This document shows, in pieces, positions 34,685 through 45,305 of a stretch of 64,000 bases of DNA; the stretch's first letter is position 1; each line of letters starts with the position of its first letter. The notes beneath the pieces are model-generated. The model was not told where the DNA came from, ran no database searches, and was given only the letters and a program-made list of their open reading frames with translations. Origin of the DNA: Saccharospirillum sp. (GTDB lineage Bacteria > Pseudomonadota > Gammaproteobacteria > Pseudomonadales > Natronospirillaceae); NCBI GenBank assembly GCA_022565595.1, contig JAIUML010000023.1:1-64000 (forward strand), written 5' to 3'. The translations under genes were made by a program, and so were the position numbers.

Positions 34685-35452
34685 ATGAAGGAAACCATAA
34701 TAATAGAACGGGACATTCCTGGTCTGGCGCGTGTTGTTTTGAACAAGCCAGAAACCGGGAACGCCTACGACGACGAACTGATCTGCACCCTGGTGACCGC
34801 ACTCGACGATCTGGCGGGCGACCCGGAACTCAAGATGGTCTGGCTGTCTGGCAAGGGCGCTCATTTTTGCACAGGTCCGGACCGGCAGTGGCTGGAACGC
34901 CGGAAACAGGTCGGGCGTGCGGAGCATTACCAGGACGCTGAGCAACTCGCACGGTTGCTCGCCACACTCTATCACTTCCCTGCCCCCGTGCTGCTGACGC
35001 TGCGCGGCGACGTGAACGCAGCCGCTGTCGGCATCGCCTGCTGTTGCGATCTGGTGTTAGCCAGCGAGCACACCTCCTTTTGCATAACGGAATCTCTGTT
35101 TGGTCAGGTGCCTGCCTTAAGTAGCCCCTATCTGGTTAAAGCGCTGGGGGAGAGAGCAGCAACCTATTACGCCTTGACTGGCGACAGCATTGACGCCTAC
35201 ACCGCAACCCGGCTGGGGTTGATCAATCGCCTGATTCCCGGGGATGAACTGGATGCTTACGCCGATGTGCTGGTCAATTCGATGTTGGCGCGCAGTGTAG
35301 ACTCGCTACGCACCACCAAACAAGTGCTGCATCTGGCCGCCAATGAAACCTATGATGACGATTTGATCGAGACGGTTATTGATTGCTCGACAGACGTACG
35401 TTTCCAGGTGAGCGAGAGCCGACGCCAATCGGCGGCCAGCAATAAACAATAG
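34685..35452 (+). CDS. LiuC-like enoyl-CoA hydratase/isomerase family protein
   Basis: 255 residues of the crotonase fold. The oxyanion-hole loop is GKGAHFCTGPD (about residue 60). The segment FCITESLFGQVPALSSPYLVKALGERAATYYALTG matches methylglutaconyl-CoA or isohexenylglutaconyl-CoA hydratases (LiuC/GnyH/AtuE) better than FadB-type hydratases. No other leucine-degradation gene lies nearby. It is convergent with psrA and has a PsrA-like site upstream. Exact substrate is uncertain. Confidence 0.8.
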   Translation: MKETIIIERDIPGLARVVLNKPETGNAYDDELICTLVTALDDLAGDPELKMVWLSGKGAHFCTGPDRQWLERRKQVGRAEHYQDAEQLARLLATLYHFPAPVLLTLRGDVNAAAVGIACCCDLVLASEHTSFCITESLFGQVPALSSPYLVKALGERAATYYALTGDSIDAYTATRLGLINRLIPGDELDAYADVLVNSMLARSVDSLRTTKQVLHLAANETYDDDLIETVIDCSTDVRFQVSESRRQSAASNKQ

Positions 35453-35461
35453 TGGTACAGA

Positions 35462-36091
35462 CTAACGCTCCAGTGCCGCAGCCAGAAACGGAATCATCTG
35501 GCGCATGACCTCGTCGATACCGGAATCTTCTCCGGTGTCAGCGATCGCCATATCTCGCAACACTTCGATGCTGGACATGGTAAATACACAGGCACCGATG
35601 GCGAAATGAATGCGCCAGAAGATCTCACGTTGAGACAATTCCGGGTGTGCGTTGCGCAAATAAAGTATGAAGCGACTGTATGTTTCGTTGTAGTTCTCAC
35701 GAAGAAATCGTCGCAAATGCCCCTGAGCCTGAGTGTAAGCCAGGCCCAGCAAGCGCATGAATACAGAAAGCTTGTTGGCATTGCCGGTCAAATGCACACC
35801 GGTAAGCATGGTATTGGCCAACACGCCCAATACATCATGCAGGTTGGGCTGCTGGTTACTGGCCACCAGAGCATTCAATTCTTTATCGAGCTTATTGCAG
35901 AACGGCGTCAGGAAGCGAGCAAAGACAGCCTGGATCAAGTCTTTTTTGGAGCCGAAGTGATAGTTTACGGCAGCCAGATTAACTTTGGCACGCGTCGTAA
36001 TCATGCGCAACGACGTTTCTGAAAACCCCTTCTCGGCAAACAACTGTTCGGCAGAATCCAGAATGCGGGTGACGGTATCGGCCTGGCTCAT
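35462..36091 (-). CDS. psrA: TetR-family fatty-acid regulator PsrA
   Basis: 209 residues. The N terminus (RILDSAEQLFAEKGFSETSLRMIT, then VNLAAVNYHFGSKKDLIQAVFARFL) is almost the same as Pseudomonas PsrA as I remember it, and so is LSVFMRLLGLAYTQAQGHLRRFL in the ligand domain. PsrA represses beta-oxidation and ETF genes and its own gene, and is released by long-chain fatty acids. A near-perfect palindromic operator lies 51 bp upstream of its start (36142-36153). Confidence 0.88.
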   Translation of the reverse strand: MSQADTVTRILDSAEQLFAEKGFSETSLRMITTRAKVNLAAVNYHFGSKKDLIQAVFARFLTPFCNKLDKELNALVASNQQPNLHDVLGVLANTMLTGVHLTGNANKLSVFMRLLGLAYTQAQGHLRRFLRENYNETYSRFILYLRNAHPELSQREIFWRIHFAIGACVFTMSSIEVLRDMAIADTGEDSGIDEVMRQMIPFLAAALER

Positions 36092-39619: not shown

Positions 39620-39835
39620 ATGACTGACCCTGCTTCGTTTACTCTGGGAGATCGCCAACAACGCTGGCTGATGGCGACGGTGTTTTTTATCGGCGTACTG
39701 TTGTTGCTGGTGGCTGTGTCTGTCCTCGGGGCCGCGCTGCTTGGTCTTGTACCCGCCGAAAGTGCGAACTTCGGGCTGGCTCCGCTGATCAGTGGCATCG
39801 CTTCCGTTCTGGCGGCACTCTACCTTGCTCCTTGA
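39620..39835 (+). CDS. Small two-helix membrane protein of unknown function
   Basis: 71 residues with GAGGAG 9 bp upstream of the ATG, so likely real. A polar N terminus of about 15 residues precedes two hydrophobic helices (WLMATVFFIGVLLLLVAVSVLGAALLGLV and LISGIASVLAALYLA). I do not recognise a family. It precedes the ligase/E1/E2/ACP module, separated by 185 bp that hold the inverted repeat at 39885-39931, so it is probably a separate unit. Confidence 0.6.
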   Translation: MTDPASFTLGDRQQRWLMATVFFIGVLLLLVAVSVLGAALLGLVPAESANFGLAPLISGIASVLAALYLAP

Positions 39836-39884: not shown

Positions 39885-39931
39885 TTGATCTGGACCAGGT
39901 TTTAACGACGTTCTAACCTGACCCAGATCAA
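39885..39931. promoter_or_regulatory. Large inverted repeat of two FNR/ANR-like boxes
   Basis: Left arm TTGATCTGGACCAGGTT (39885-39901), right arm AACCTGACCCAGATCAA (39915-39931), 15 of 17 positions complementary, 13-bp spacer. Each arm reads as an FNR-type box: TTGATCTGGACCAG, and on the other strand TTGATCTGGGTCAG, each matching TTGAT-N4-ATCAA at 8 of 10 positions. It lies 90 bp before the ligase gene. No T-run follows, so a terminator is less likely. Confidence 0.45.
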
Positions 39932-40020: not shown

Positions 40021-41781
40021 ATGACTTACAAAACAATAGAAAAAGGCGCTGTCGATGCTGCCTGTGTAATGCAGGACTATCAGCTCGAGTATCAGAAGTT
40101 TCATTGGGAACAAGCCGAACAGGCACTGGCGGGTTTGCCCGAGGGAGGCTTGAACATCGCCTTCGAAGCGGTGGACCGGCATCTGAATACGGATGTAGCA
40201 GAAAAAGCCGCTTTAACGTTTTTATCACGAAACTCAACGGATATTGAACACAGCCTGACCTACCAGCAATTGGCGGAGCAGAGCAGTCGTTTTGCCAGCG
40301 CATTGCAGCAAATGGGGCTCAAACCTGGAGATCGGGTATATTGCCTTGCAGGGCGCATTCCTGAACTCTTCATTACCGCCCTGGGTACACTCAAGTTCGG
40401 TGGTGTTTTCTCGCCACTCTTCTCTGCGTTTGGCCCGGAACCTATCCGCTCTCGCCTGGAAATCGGTCAGGCATCGGTTCTGGTAACAACTGAAAAACTC
40501 TATCAGAAAAAACTGGCCACCTGGCTGCTGGAGCTCGACTTTCTAAAGCATTGTCTGGTAGTTACAGAGCCCGAGCACACTGCCCCTGCCGGCACAGAAT
40601 CCTTTCATACCCTGCTTCAACAGGGTGATCCGGGCTATCAATGCCACCCCACTCGCCCAGAGGATCCTGCACTGTTGCACTTTACCAGCGGCACTACCGG
40701 GAAGCCCAAGGGTGCCTTGCATGTTCATCAGGCCGTGGTAGCGCATCGAATGACTGCACAATTTGCATTGGATCTTAGACAGGACGACATCTATTGGTGC
40801 ACGGCGGATCCGGGTTGGGTCACAGGTACCTCTTACGGCATCCTGGCCCCTCTGACTCTAGGTGCTACCTTGATCATTGATCCTGCAGACTTTGATGCCG
40901 AGCGCTGGTACAGCATTCTTCAGGACCGGGGCGTTACCGTCTGGTATACAGCACCCACTGCTATTCGCATGTTGATGAAGTACGGCACCGAATTGCCTCA
41001 ACAAGTTGATTTAACCGCACTGCGGCACATGGCCAGCGTTGGTGAGCCCTTGAACCCAGAGGCCGTTGTCTGGGGTACCAAAGCTCTGGGCAAGCCTTTT
41101 CACGATAACTGGTGGCAGACGGAAACTGGCGGCATCATGATTGCCAACTACCCTTGCTTGCCCATCAAACCGGGCTCCATGGGCAAACCGATGCCGGGTA
41201 TAACTGCTGCTATAGCGCGTCGAACTGATGCAGGTATTGAATGGGTTGACGCGCCCGGAGAGGCCGGAGAACTGGTGTTGAAAGCAGGCTGGCCCTCCAT
41301 GTTCCGAAGCTATCTGCATGAAGAGGCTCGTTACCAGAAGGCTTTTCAGGACGGCTGGTATTTCACAGGTGATTTGGCCCAGTTCGACGAAGAAGGCTAT
41401 TTCTGGTTTGTCGGTCGCGCCGATGATGTCATCAAATCATCCGGGCATCTGATAGGCCCCTTTGAAGTAGAAAGCGCGCTCATGGAGCACCCGGCCGTTG
41501 CCGAGGCCGGTGTGATCGGTGTACCAGACGAGCTCGGTGGAGAAGTTGTAAAAGCGTTTATTGCCTTGAAGCCTGGCTATCAGGCCAATGAAGAGCTAAT
41601 TCGAGAGGTTTTAGGTCTGGCCAGAAAGCGGCTCGGACCTGCTGTGGCTCCCAAGAGTATAGAGGTACGCGACAACTTGCCCAAAACACGCAGCGGCAAG
41701 ATCATGCGACGTCTGTTGAAGGCCCGGGAGTTGGGTCTGCCCGAAGGCGATATCTCAACCATGGAGGGAAACAACGAATGA
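40021..41781 (+). CDS. AMP-forming acetyl-CoA synthetase-like ligase
   Basis: 586 residues from the ATG at 40021 (AAGGGGG upstream); a GTG at 39997 would add 8. Adenylate-forming family: phosphate loop [11 protein letters not shown] at 221-231, WWQTETGG (about residue 370), [31 protein letters not shown] hinge region, and catalytic Lys560 in RSGKIMRR. The WWQTETGG motif and the size match the AcsA type (acetate or short acyl). It is first of four overlapping genes with E1, E2 and an ACP. The true acceptor, CoA or ACP, is open. Confidence 0.88.
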
Positions 41782-43823
41782 GTACCCATCTGGAAGCGTC
41801 ACAAATTGATGAAACACCGGTAAAACACCGGGAAAAGCTGCGACTCAGTCGTGATCATCTATTGTCCTTGCTCAGCAACATGGTGCGCATTCGCCGAATG
41901 GAAGAGCGATGTGCTGAACTCTATACTCAGGAAAAGATTCGCGGCTTTCTGCATCTCTACATCGGTGAAGAGGCTGTAGGAACGGGGGTTATGGCCAACC
42001 TTGGGGCAGAAGATGCGGCCGTGGGAACCTATCGTGAGCATGGCCATGCCTTGCTTCAGGGTGTTCCCATGAACGCCATCATGGCCGAGATGTATGGCAA
42101 GTATTCAGGCTGTAGCCTTGGCCGTGGCGGTTCCATGCATCTGTTCGATGCAGAGCACCGCTTTTACGGGGGCAATGCCATCGTCGGGGGTGGTTTGCCG
42201 CTGGCCGTCGGCCTGGCCCTTGCCGACAAGTTGCAGGGTCGCAATCGGGTTACGGTGTGCTTCTTTGGCGAAGGGGCCAGTGCCGAAGGGGTCTTTCATG
42301 AAAGCCTCAATCTGGCCTCATTGTGGCAATTGCCTGTGCTCTTTGTTTGTGAAAACAATCTCTATGCCATGGGTACGGCCTTATCTTTGTCACAGGCTCA
42401 GACTGATATCTACCGTAAAGCCGAATCCCACAATGTTGCCGCCAGCTCTGTTGATGGCATGAATGTGGTCGACGTGGATGCCGCTGCCAAAATTGCTGTA
42501 GAACATATCAAACAGGGTAATGGCCCATATTTCCTGGAATGCCATACCTATCGATTTCGTGCCCACTCGATGTTCGACCCTCAGTTGTATCGGGACAAGG
42601 CCGAAGTCGAAACCTGGAAAAACAAGGACCCCATCAACCAGTTAAGGGACTGGATGATGCATAGCGCCTTGCTGAATGAAGAACAATGGTCACAACTGGA
42701 AAACAAGGTGGTTGAGGAAGTGGAGGCAGCCGTTGCCTTTGCCGAAGCAGCTCCCTGGGAGCCTGTTGAAAACTTGACCGAGCATCTGCTAAAGCCTCTG
42801 CCTGAGCCACTGGTACCGCCGCCCAACAAGCTGACACATGACCAGGAGTTGACCTACCGGGATGCCTGCCGCCTTGCCATTCAGGAGGCCATGCAGGCAG
42901 ATGAACAAGTTTTCCTGATGGGTGAGGATGTTGGCCACTATGGTGGCTGCTATGCGGTCACCAAGGGCTTGTTGGCAGAATTTGGAGAGAAGCGCATACG
43001 TGATACGCCACTTTCCGAGGATACATTCACCGGTGCAGGCATTGGCGCAGCCCTGGGGGGAATGAAGCCAATCGTCGAAATCATGTCTGTCAATTTCAGT
43101 TTGCTGGCCATGGATCAGATCGTCAATACGGCTGCGGCGTTGTTGCATATGTCGGGGGGCCAGTTCCATGTGCCCCTGGTCATTCGCATGGCAACCGGGG
43201 CGGGCCGGCAACTCGCTGCACAACATTCACACAGCCTTGAACACTGGTATGCCCACGTTCCCGGCTTAAGAGTCTTGACCCCGGCAACCCATCAGGATGC
43301 ACGTTATATGCTCTGGGCTGCCCTTCAGGACCCCAATCCAGTGCTGATTTTTGAGCATGTACAGTTGTATAACCGCAAAGATCAACTTGAGGATGTGCCA
43401 GAAGGTGTTGATTTGGACAAGGCTGCCATTCGCCGGCCCGGAAAAGACATCAGCCTGATCACCTATGGTGCCAATCTGTACAAGGCACTGGAGGCGGCCG
43501 ATGCTCTGAAACAGGAGGGCATCGATGCCGAAGTCATCGATCTACGTGTATTGCGCCCACTGGACGAAGCGACCCTGCTTGAGTCCATCGCCCGTACGCA
43601 CCGAGCATTAATCATTGATGAGGCCTGGAAAACCGGTGGCATGTCCGCCGAAATCAGCGCCCTCTTTGCCGAGAAAGCCTTCTGGGAGCTGGATGCCCCA
43701 ATTGCTCGCCTGGGGGCCTGCGAAGTGCCGATACCGCACGCTGCACATATGGAGGCGGCGGCTTTACCCCAGGTTGATGAGATCGTCCGTTTGGCGGGTC
43801 AACTGGTTCGGAGTGCCCCATGA
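41778..43823 (+). CDS. Fused E1 alpha-beta subunit of a 2-oxoacid dehydrogenase
   Basis: 681 residues. The N-terminal half (to about residue 345) is an E1 alpha subunit with the thiamine diphosphate motif starting GEG (residues 164-166) and ending NN about 30 residues later. The C-terminal half, from about residue 357 ([15 protein letters not shown]), is an E1 beta subunit with GEDVGHYGG and [21 protein letters not shown]. Both active halves are needed for decarboxylation of a 2-oxoacid, so one polypeptide can replace the usual alpha2beta2. Closest in type to acetoin or pyruvate dehydrogenases. ATGA overlaps on both sides. Confidence 0.9.
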
Positions 43824-45070
43824 GCGACTTTTTGATGCCCTCACTTGGCGCCGATATGGACAGCGCCACTCTGGTGGAATGGCTTGTCAAGCCGGGTGAT
43901 TCGGTCAAGCGTGGCGACGTTATTGCTGTCGTCGAGACGGCGAAGGGTGCCATAGAGATTGAAGTGTTTGAAAGCGGCGTGGTCGATGCACTGTTGATCG
44001 AAGTGGAAACGGAAATAGACGTAGGCACCCCACTGGCACGTATTCGCGGTGCTCAGCAGAGCGCTGAACCCCCTGTTTCGTCGCCACCAATGGAAGCGCC
44101 TTCAGTCGCTTCGCCGGTTGAAGCAAAGGCAGCAACCGAGCCTGAGGAAACTGAGGCTGATCAGCTTATCGCTCCGCACCCCTCGCCCTCTTCTGGAGAG
44201 CGCCTGCGTGCTTCGCCGCTTGCCCGAGCAAGGTCGAGCCAGCAGCAACTGGACCTTGAGCAGATGAAGGGTTCAGGGCCGGCAGGCGCCATATTGGCTA
44301 GAGATCTTCCTGCTGACAATCAAGCGTCTGAAGCGGTGAGCAGAAAGGCGGGCAAGCTGGGTTTTGATCCCGGTGCAATGCGTAAGGCCATTGCCAGTGC
44401 CATGGCACGCTCCAAACGGGAGATACCACACTACTATTTGCAAAACCGGTTCGATATGTCGGCCGCTGTCACCTGGCTGGCTGAATACAATGCCGGTCAG
44501 GAGCCAGCACAGCGACTGATTCTCTCCGCGCTGTTGCTGCGTGCTACGGTTCTGGCGCTGCAGTCTTATCCGGAATTCAACGGATTCTGGCAAGATGAGG
44601 CATTCCAACCCAGTACTGACATCCATCTGGGGATGGCCATTAACATTCGCAGTCTGGGCCTGATCACCCCTGCACTGCGTAATCTGGAACAGGCCTCCCT
44701 GGCGGAGGTCATGCTGAAACTTCAGGATGTCACCAAAAGAGCGCGTAACGGCGGCTTACGCAGTTCTGAAGTTGGCACGGCAACCCTGACAGTTACGGCT
44801 CTGGGAGAACGAGGTGTCGACAGCGTCTTTGGCGTGATATTCCCGCCTCAGGTTGCCATTCTCGGCTTTGGTCGAATGCATCGGGAGCCGGTCGCCGTCG
44901 GCGATGCGCTCGCTGTTCGCCCCATTATTCAGGCAACTCTGGCTGCTGACCATCGCGTCAGCGACGGCCATCGCGGCGCCCTCTTCCTGGATCGCATTGG
45001 TCAACTACTCAATGAACCGGCGAAATTGGCCGAGTCATCCTCAATAGATAAAGGAGCTCATCATGACTGA
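43820..45070 (+). CDS. Lipoyl-bearing E2 acyltransferase of a 2-oxoacid dehydrogenase complex
   Basis: 416 residues: one lipoyl domain (lipoyl Lys42 in ETAKGAIE), a linker of about 60 residues rich in Pro/Ala/Glu, and an E1/E3-binding segment ([10 protein letters not shown], then [15 protein letters not shown]). The C-terminal catalytic domain has DHRVSDG (His378, Asp382). The binding segment implies docking of E3, which is not encoded here. The start overlaps the E1 stop and the stop overlaps the ACP start by 8 bp. Confidence 0.9.
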
Positions 45071-45305
45071 AAGCAGCTTGCGCTCAGCAATAATCGAAGA
45101 ATTGATCAAGATAGCCCCCGATCTTGACGCCGCAGATATCGACGACGACGGTCTGCTACACGATGATTACGACCTGGACTCGATGGACTCTTTCAACCTT
45201 GCCTCGGCCATTCACCAACGCCTGGGCATCAATATCCCGGACAGCGACTTTGCTCGTCTGCAAAGTGTCGGTGACCTGGTTCGCTACCTGGCACAGAAAG
45301 CTTAA
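45063..45305 (+). CDS. Dedicated acyl carrier protein
   Basis: 80 residues, acidic, with the phosphopantetheine site LDSMDSFNL (Ser40) and the following helix [37 protein letters not shown] is placed well before the ATG. It is not the fatty-acid synthase AcpP, being joined to a ligase/E1/E2 operon and not to fab genes. Its stop overlaps the end of cysG (opposite strand) by 4 bp. Confidence 0.85.

Follow-up and report, generated by a model that had tools for sequence, protein, structure and literature searches.

An operon encoding, in this order, an AMP-forming acetate ligase, a fused E1 dehydrogenase, an E2 component, and an acyl carrier protein (ACP) is widespread and conserved far beyond chance, and on balance it is probably a low-oxygen pyruvate/acetate module that holds acetyl groups on its own ACP, which would be served by both the E2 and the ligase. 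New here are the FNR-type boxes upstream of the operon, an E2 without its C-terminal knob, and a ligase-ACP pair that occurs without E1 and E2. Among the titles and abstract openings that searches of the open PMC literature listed, none describes a ligase-E1-E2-ACP operon.

Gene organization and distribution

The window, a 64,000-nucleotide stretch of a Saccharospirillum genome, carries the module at 40021-45305 as four plus-strand genes that overlap at every junction. The ligase (40021..41781, 586 amino acids; ORF check, Pfam, and NCBIfam) is an AMP-forming acetate ligase of the PRK04319/AcsA type, and its end shares an ATGA with the start of E1 (41778..43823, 681 amino acids; Pfam and NCBIfam), a fused alpha-beta protein of the pyruvate dehydrogenase type. 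A second ATGA is common to the end of E1 and the start of E2 (43820..45070, 416 amino acids; Pfam, NCBIfam, and alignments), which overlaps the gene for the dedicated ACP (45063..45305, 80 amino acids; ORF check, Pfam, NCBIfam, and alignment) by 8 bp (ATGACTGA); an E2-ACP overlap of exactly 4 bp was found at 44/64 junctions measured in module loci. A first-pass annotation had given these reading frames and overlaps correctly to the base, its gene identities (ligase, fused E1, one-lipoyl E2, and ACP with Ser40 in LDSMD) were confirmed by Pfam and NCBIfam, and the operon indeed contains no E3 gene; one Lpd over its cut-off is encoded elsewhere in the genome (contig C28), adjoining an ordinary E2.

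The same annotation had read the four genes as a single module that includes its own ACP. The gene order bears this out: when the 80 best GTDB loci for the ligase were taken from 580 confirmed relatives, 64 had all parts in sequence, in a sample biased toward close relatives and containing many metagenome-assembled genomes. The remaining 16 of these loci comprised 13 cut by a contig end, one with E1 replaced, one ligase-ACP pair, and one without a module. Order-bearing loci among the best 80 came from Proteobacteria, Nitrospira, Acidobacteria, Planctomycetes, Chloroflexi, Deinococcota, and others, and the module was also found on Streptomyces and Rhodococcus plasmids. The possibility that the ACP gene is absent beside most E1/E2 genes had also been raised; instead, ACP followed E2 at 11/11 places (≥44% identity, E ≤ 1e-50; 369 gammaproteobacterial genomes) and was missing from none of the uncut E1/E2-bearing loci among the best 80 of the 580 GTDB relatives. 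Across 54 loci, which include relatives and are not independent, distances were correlated between ligase and E2 (0.79), ligase and ACP (0.64), and E2 and ACP (0.60), values reached in 0/1000 shuffles. The distances of E1 tracked those of the other parts less well (r 0.35-0.49), perhaps only since E1 varies less.

The ligase-ACP pair also exists without E1 and E2, where its divergent neighbour was a Pat-like gene in 6/6 assessable cases. Exceptions to the pairing were a ligase with neither ACP nor E1/E2 within 10 kb downstream (L145) and two cases in which the ACP does not adjoin the ligase (G068 and G199); no ACP match was obtained in G362, where the ligase sits at a contig end. The pair bears on a doubtful alternative, in which the operon would encode an auxiliary CoA-using complex producing acetyl-CoA from pyruvate and acetate at low oxygen, with the ACP as a helper such as a stabilising subunit or an octanoyl donor for E2 lipoylation. 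Lipoyl synthesis is known to draw on ACPs as donors, which counts in its favour, but ligase and ACP remain together at loci that have no E2, where lipoylation is irrelevant, and the genome already encodes another ACP, a canonical Acs, and three other full E2s. The role of octanoyl donor is itself unlikely because the ligase-ACP pair occurs without E2.

Properties of the enzymes and the carrier protein

Both halves of E1 scored over the cut-offs of curated NCBIfam models, the alpha half with TIGR03182 (450 vs 393.85) and the beta half with NF006667 (393 vs 321). That both are pyruvate dehydrogenase models counts against glycolyl loading as in naphthyridinomycin, a very improbable reading in which a ketose phosphate, in place of pyruvate, would supply E1 with a two-carbon unit and E2 would pass it on to give glycolyl-ACP, and for which the proposed E1/E2-to-carrier precedent cited in the excerpted text of PMC5384830 speaks.

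The E2 consists of one Biotin_lipoyl, one E3-binding, and one 2-oxoacid_dh domain (Pfam). Its single lipoyl domain (43826..44044, plus strand; Pfam and alignment) carries Lys42 in ETAKGA, which is invariant among 60 aligned module E2s, its peripheral-subunit (E3) binding domain (44207..44305, plus strand) scored 31.3 bits against a cut-off of 23.7, and its catalytic domain (44375..45028, plus strand; Pfam and alignment) contains DHRVSDG with His378 and Asp382. The lipoyl lysine and DHR are retained by module E2s, with ordinary catalytic residues kept; the E2 fell under the cut-off of every NCBIfam model that it matched (best TIGR01349, 234.8 vs 445 bits), and the module E2s of loci L103 and L081 were likewise under curated E2 cut-offs. 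The module therefore resembles the pyruvate dehydrogenase complex (E1p/E2p/E3) in an E1 over curated cut-offs and in the lipoyl, E3-binding, and catalytic domains of an E2 with DHR and the lipoyl lysine, and it differs from that complex in having a dedicated ACP and no E3 gene and in an E2 that lacks the C-terminal knob and lies under the curated cut-offs tested.

In place of the hydrophobic knob of ordinary E2s, the module E2 ends in a polar tail (45029..45067, plus strand; tail comparison). Both knob residues were hydrophobic in 0/85 module E2s and in 32/32 ordinary E2s of module-bearing genomes, with related loci non-independent in this comparison; one hydrophobic residue was retained in 7/85. 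The motif filter retained 85 of 104 module loci, L108 among them being an antisense artefact. The other 19/104 gave no E2, mostly at cut contigs; L140, L151, L155, and L181, also among the 19, were not picked up. The controls comprised 29 of the best 30 ordinary-E2 loci (module locus L226 left out) and three from the window genome. In ordinary E2s, the knob forms the trimer-trimer contact of a hollow core, and CoA enters E2 from inside that core (PMC8421416). Judged from the tail alone, the module E2 would stay a trimer without a hollow core, and since module E2s have no core-joining knob, their acceptor mouth may be open to a protein; the missing knob also counts against the auxiliary CoA-using complex. 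Actinobacterial E2p/OdhA, as described in the excerpted text of PMC10415282, similarly has a trimeric E2 that has lost core assembly via its C-terminus, but there through a three-residue insertion with Phe rather than the loss of terminal hydrophobic residues, and with no ACP in that account.

The ACP has a PP-binding domain (Pfam, 44.8 bits vs a cut-off of 20.8), and its profile matches solved ACPs, while it lies under the cut-off of all NCBIfam ACP models matched, for example TIGR00517 (38.0 vs 70.45) and NF002147 (42.4 vs 84). The predicted phosphopantetheine site is Ser40 in LDSMD (codon 45180..45182, plus strand; sequence and ACP alignments); this serine is invariant in an alignment of 23 ACPs, and a serine motif was present, by a loose pattern, in 66/66 GTDB ACPs.

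The ligase has AMP-binding and AMP-binding_C domains (Pfam) and scored 879.1 bits against the cut-off of 729 for the acetate--CoA ligase model NF003313. Among 81 ligases, W364, W365, Q366, and E368 of the acetate motif were present in 81/81, which argues against glycolyl loading, as were T268, V340, and K560, and position 267 was Val in 78/81 and Ile in 3/81; we take these acetate-pocket and catalytic positions to be those of Salmonella Acs. The basic residues K164 and R535, presumably CoA-binding, were kept in 81/81, and together with the ordinary acetate--CoA ligase score they are compatible with CoA use by the ligase, which may occur; the ordinary catalytic residues of E2 likewise count against the carrier reading. 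In this comparison of 81 ligases, the residues did not discriminate CoA from ACP as the acceptor. The auxiliary CoA-using complex gains from the scores of E1 and ligase over curated models of CoA-linked enzymes and from the retention of the tested Acs motif residues, save Ile for Val267 in 3/81. DltA/DltC, AasS, and similar pairs also join an adenylating enzyme to a dedicated carrier, but they handle other acyl groups and lack E1/E2; the window ACP scored 19.1 with the DltC model (cut-off 68). The closest family of the module ligase is AMP-forming acetyl-CoA synthetase, in which Syntrophus Acs1 provides a precedent for the ATP-forming direction, running in reverse from acetyl thioester, AMP, and PPi to ATP and acetate (PMC4992975), whereas the module ligase is coupled to its own ACP gene.

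Upstream boxes and flanking genes

A FNR/FixK-type box with one mismatch (CTGACCCAGATCAA; sequence match) lies at 39918..39931 on the plus strand, 103 bp before the ligase ATG, and part of it pairs with 39885-39893 in a perfect 9-bp inverted repeat (TTGATCTGG...CCAGATCAA). Congeners carry a perfect box upstream (L070 at -209, L072 at -121, and L074 at -210). With the consensus TTGAY-N4-RTCAA, perfect boxes occurred upstream of 23/87 modules and of 17/374 neighbouring genes (p = 1e-8), in sets that each contain close relatives (L116/L135 and L090/L106; L042/L043 and L048/L049) and share one organism (L043/L081), L071 having been dropped as a duplicate of L074; 54/87 module upstream regions had no box of one mismatch or less. 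These predicted FNR-type boxes suggest low-oxygen induction of the module; the boxless regions and the mismatch in the window copy speak against it.

PEP synthase/PPDK was encoded near 6/69 modules and 0/20 random stretches, the latter taken from six gammaproteobacterial genomes; the queries came partly from loci in the tested set, and related loci are non-independent. Malic enzyme accounted for 3/84 upstream proteins scanned, and these two neighbours point to pyruvate and thus away from glycolyl loading. No enrichment near modules was found for universal stress proteins (1/69 vs 1/20), P-type ATPase (4/69 vs 1/20), or PRPP synthetase (7/69 vs 1/20), queries for AckA, Pta, FabI, FtsH, CbpA, DUF3775, and PfkB matched 0/69 flanks and 0/20 controls, and none of the stress-island families among the flank queries matched in the window. 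The genes inserted at a few of the loci are unlike one another, with DnaJ in L093 and flavodoxin in L133, and a RlaP-family gene follows the ACP in L093 and L103 only, among the loci scanned.

The first-pass annotation had suggested looking for a conserved fifth gene, and none emerged: no flanking family occurred in more than 16 of 80 GTDB loci plus the window, the most frequent one lying at varied distances, and no NRPS/PKS or other synthase recurred among the commonest flanking families listed. ACPs normally feed synthases, and it is possible, if rather unlikely, that pyruvate and acetate are two entrances to an acetyl-ACP supply that primes an unlinked ketosynthase (fatty acid, polyester, or lipid). 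The Sulfitobacter SK012 island, which adds FabI, enoyl-CoA hydratase/phosphate acetyltransferase, and acetate/propionate kinase, favours such a consumer, but the want of a recurrent flanking family and the empty single queries for FabI, AckA, and Pta tell against it. A paper on OsdR/DevR names PPDK and Usp genes in the same kind of island, and the terms "acyl carrier" and "pyruvate dehydrogenase" do not occur in its excerpted text (PMC5069765).

Proposed route and its significance

In the favoured reading, the module would be induced by low oxygen or stress, and E1 would decarboxylate pyruvate and acetylate the lipoyl arm of E2. The E2, remaining a trimer with an open acceptor mouth, would pass the acetyl group from its lipoyl arm to the phosphopantetheine arm of the ACP, instead of or besides CoA, with acetyl-ACP as the putative intermediate. 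The lipoyl arm would be re-oxidised by the housekeeping E3, and the ligase would exchange acetate with the ACP, either charging it with acetate as a second entrance or working the other way, from acetyl-ACP to free acetate and ATP; we infer the direction of the ligase and the use of housekeeping E3 and AcpS.

In naphthyridinomycin and quinocarcin biosynthesis, Peng in 2012 reportedly described glycolyl loading of an ACP by E1/E2 with a ketose donor, in secondary metabolism. The module shares with these pathways 2-oxoacid-dehydrogenase-like parts beside a carrier protein, which they load there, and differs in its pyruvate-type E1, its acetate ligase, and its stress or housekeeping surroundings. 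The earlier statement that such complexes hand acyl groups to CoA and not ACP thus needs qualifying, since carrier loading by E1/E2 has been proposed for pepteridine and, as cited there, for naphthyridinomycin (excerpted text of PMC5384830). In the pepteridine locus of Photorhabdus (plu2792-plu2799), an E1-like protein and the E2-T-C fusion Plu2796 are encoded without E3, output depends on the carrier serine, and E2 is the proposed acyl donor to the carrier (PMC5384830). The module is similar in encoding E1 and E2 with a carrier protein and no E3, but its ACP is free, whereas the pepteridine carrier shares one polypeptide with E2 and an NRPS condensation domain and serves a pteridine product; unlike pepteridine, the module has a ligase, a very wide distribution, and no recurrent NRPS or pteridine genes.

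A narrower version, which we consider unlikely, is a closed, CoA-independent energy pathway at low oxygen, from pyruvate through acetyl-E2 and acetyl-ACP to acetate and ATP, with the ligase running backwards on AMP and PPi and the ACP insulating the flux from the CoA pool. Under such a closed pathway, no fifth conserved gene would be expected, and the PEP synthase/PPDK neighbours, the loss of the knob, and the enrichment of FNR/FixK-type boxes would be accounted for.

If acetyl groups do travel on this ACP, many phyla would retain a second, carrier-protein route alongside CoA in central pyruvate/acetate metabolism, one apparently activated when oxygen is low. Dormancy and stress islands would thereby gain a link to an ACP gene that is annotated but unexplained, and the missing knob of E2 would make sense.

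The four genes and the genome that carries them

On the forward strand of the window, a ligase (40021-41781), a fused E1 (41778-43823), an E2 (43820-45070) and a separate acyl carrier protein (ACP; 45063-45305) lie at the positions that the first-pass annotation gave them, and re-reading of the sequence bore out the claimed junctions of ATGA, ATGA and then an 8-bp overlap. The claimed functions also held: the acetyl-CoA synthetase-like ligase passes the NCBIfam cut-off as a PRK04319-type acetate--CoA ligase, E1 unites an alpha chain of pyruvate type with a beta chain in one protein (both over cut-off), E2 has a single lipoyl, a single E3-binding and a single catalytic domain, and the ACP contains LDSMD with Ser40. 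E2 and ACP both fall under the cut-offs of all NCBIfam models that they matched. The window E1 alpha has GEG as its thiamine-diphosphate motif; E stands at this position in 45 of 75 family sequences and D in 30.

A 71-aa ORF immediately upstream of the module (39620-39835) gave zero matches in a Pfam and NCBIfam scan, and a crotonase-family gene at 34685-36091 adjoins a PsrA-like TetR regulator (237.9 bits, under the 300-bit cut-off). The module is flanked by tusE/YbiB-like genes and cysG, which also border it in genome G371 (locus L072) and had zero matches at loci L070, L071 and L074.

Elsewhere in the genome there are three full-length E2s and one E2 fragment at a contig end, one Lpd (E3) over cut-off, adjoining an ordinary E2 on contig C28, and a canonical Acs; the module is therefore an extra and not the sole acetyl-CoA route. 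A genome search found one further PP-binding match besides the module ACP and one phosphopantetheinyl transferase match, AcpS-sized. The E3 reaction and holo-ACP formation for the module would fall to housekeeping enzymes.

Distribution and composition of the module

The ligase clade (E <= 1e-150, at least 59% identity) was found in 18 of 369 gammaproteobacterial genomes, and the order ligase-E1-E2-ACP was recovered in 12 of these. Three of the 18 have ligase-ACP only (G084, G208, G303), two have the ligase and an ACP match on different contigs (G068, whose ACP aligns closely with that of G303, and G199), and no ACP match was found in G362, where the ligase stops at a contig end. The E2 search at E <= 1e-50, which missed the module of G107, gave 14 places in the 369 genomes; far from being mostly absent beside E1/E2, the ACP adjoins E2 in a module at all 11 places of at least 44% identity, and the remaining three (32-35%) are other E2s. 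The ACP is present in four of six genomes of the window's genus (E < 1e-26), and in 16 genomes from other genera of the family the strongest match reached only 3.3e-5.

A GTDB scan by ligase alignment confirmed at least 580 relatives, and among the best 80 the full order ligase, E1 alpha, E1 beta, E2, ACP is present in 64, a contig ends inside the module in 13, L089 has ligase-ACP, L094 is the E1 variant described below, and the 10 kb downstream of the L145 ligase contain no module; E1 alpha and beta share a single frame in 19 of these 80. By record title, the full-order loci include members of Proteobacteria, Nitrospira, Acidobacteria, Planctomycetes, Chloroflexi (Anaerolinea), Deinococcota (Trueperaceae) and Myxococcales, and many of the records are metagenome-assembled. 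The module E2 also matched 22 plasmid records, and acsA, pdhA, E1 beta (separate or fused), E2 and ACP stand in order in all nine plasmid regions examined (Streptomyces, Methylocystis, Sinorhizobium, two Rhodococcus, Sulfitobacter, Cupriavidus, Burkholderia, Leisingera). With rule-chosen start codons at the GTDB loci, the most frequent exact spacing is an overlap of four bases at the ligase-E1 (48/77), E1 alpha-E1 beta (24/73) and E2-ACP (44/64) junctions, and the E1 beta-E2 junction has an 8-base overlap in 19 and a 4-base overlap in 18 of 71.

Pairwise distances across 54 complete loci correlate at 0.79 for ligase-E2, 0.64 for ligase-ACP, 0.60 for E2-ACP and 0.81 for E1 alpha-E1 beta, and at only 0.35-0.49 for E1 against the other parts, although the smaller variance of E1 may itself depress its r; in each of the six comparisons tested, all 1000 label shuffles stayed below the observed value. 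One variant locus (L094:7786-13228) keeps ligase-E2-ACP and has divergent E1 alpha and beta genes (41% and 48%) upstream of the ligase instead. Together, the correlations and this variant suggest a core of ligase, E2 and ACP with an exchangeable E1.

Where the ligase lacks E1/E2 and its flank could be assessed (six loci: L048, L049, L052, L068, L069, L089), a divergent gene resembling that for Pat, a protein acetyltransferase, adjoins the ligase every time; this Pat-like gene encodes ~897 aa with CoA-binding, succinyl-CoA-ligase-like, ATP-grasp and GNAT domains (ADP-forming-synthetase-like plus GNAT), as read with Pfam on L049 and L068, and was traced by tblastn. The count leaves aside a seventh such locus, L145, where only 163 bases precede the ligase, and at L067 (G362, cut downstream) a Pat-like match was absent in the 6.9 kb upstream. 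Among the remaining loci searched, the gene was found only at L079 (35% identity, 2.4 kb beyond the ACP) and near L056, a second ACP locus of G120 without a ligase. Ligase-ACP thus seems, from gene neighbourhood, to have two alternative partners, E1/E2 or the Pat-like gene.

E2 tail, upstream boxes and surroundings

In published work on E2 cores, the knob that joins trimers is a short hydrophobic C-terminal helix, CoA enters the active site from the inside of the hollow core and the lipoyl domain from the outside (PMC8421416), and actinobacterial E2p is merely trimeric owing to a C-terminal insertion (PMC10415282). Counting from DHR, residue 27 is the last in 68 of 85 module E2s (a set that includes an antisense artefact, L108; the filter picked up no E2 at 19 of 104 loci), and the window E2 runs on past it as a polar tail. 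Hydrophobic residues fill both positions 28 and 29 in 0/85 module E2s versus 32/32 ordinary E2s (drawn from the window genome and 14 gammaproteobacterial genomes that carry the module), and one of the two is hydrophobic in 7/85. Other positions differ consistently as well: the residue before PPQ, for example, is Asn in 32/32 ordinary E2s, while 81% of module E2s have Tyr and the window has Phe. We infer that the module E2 may be a lone trimer, with an acceptor mouth that a 9-kDa carrier could reach.

A perfect TTGAY-N4-RTCAA box lies within 300 bp upstream of 23/87 GTDB and plasmid modules versus 17/374 further genes at the same loci whose upstream region is free (Fisher 1.0e-8), and with one mismatch allowed the counts are 33/87 versus 44/374 (5.5e-8), 28 of the 33 boxes falling at -57 to -112. 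An earlier pattern, TTGAT-N4-ATCAA with at most one mismatch, gave 16/78 modules versus 4/400 random stretches, and a second set (gammaproteobacteria plus the window; counted without a control set) has a perfect box in 9/20 upstream regions. This box is of the type used by FNR/FixK/Anr-type regulators, here as a candidate site by sequence. The window box, at -103, has one mismatch and lies within a perfect 9-bp inverted repeat upstream of the ligase (TTGATCTGG/CCAGATCAA enclosing CAGGTTTTAACGACGTTCTAACCTG, 39885-39931), a possible operator.

Modules are often set in stress or dormancy islands. Universal stress proteins are annotated in 7/9 and Hsp20 in 5/9 plasmid regions (counts without a control), and neighbours at other loci include LonB, P-type ATPases, PEP synthase/PPDK, DnaJ and erythromycin-esterase-family genes. 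With queries taken partly from the loci under test, any of nine stress-island families was found in 26/69 module flanks versus 2/20 random stretches, two or more in 11/69 versus 0/20, Hsp20 in 9/69, PEP synthase/PPDK in 6/69 and NAPRT in 5/69 (each versus 0/20); universal stress proteins (1/69 versus 1/20) and P-type ATPases (4/69 versus 1/20) showed no enrichment, and the window outside the module had zero matches to the query families.

Erythromycin-esterase-family proteins occur in 15/69 flanks versus 0/20 random stretches (L076, L079, L088, L093, L095, L097, L103, L111, L130, L134, L140, L144, L145, L146, L148); the one at L084, which served as a flank-test query, forms a fusion with a phosphoribosyltransferase. 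Two Nitrospira genomes have a gene of the RlaP family of RNA repair nucleotidyltransferases directly after the ACP (L103:15372-16049, L093:16778-17455), and at L103 it overlaps the ACP by four bases.

Proposed working of the module

The module as a whole probably operates as E1 to E2 to ACP, with the ligase acting on the ACP: E1 would decarboxylate pyruvate and pass acetyl to the lipoyl arm of E2, which would hand it to the arm of the ACP; the ligase would swap acetate on and off the same ACP. The E2-to-carrier step proposed here has a precedent in pepteridine synthesis, where one protein combines E2 with a carrier and a condensation domain and functions without its own E3, and where production requires the carrier serine; the authors propose direct carrier priming and name further proposed cases, including naphthyridinomycin (PMC5384830). 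Syntrophus Acs1, an AMP-forming synthetase that yields ATP from an acetyl thioester, is a precedent for what the module ligase may do (PMC4992975).

No consumer gene conserved beside the module was found, and the boldest reading is for this reason a closed route on the ACP, from pyruvate to acetate and ATP; alternatively, acetyl-ACP may be supplied to an unlinked synthase. No description of the module operon was found in the open-access PMC literature. Carrier loading by E1/E2 is already known or proposed for natural-product pathways; what is new relative to those cases is that the module is free-standing, includes an acetate ligase, is very widespread, and combines an E2 that lacks the knob with upstream regions enriched in FNR-type boxes.
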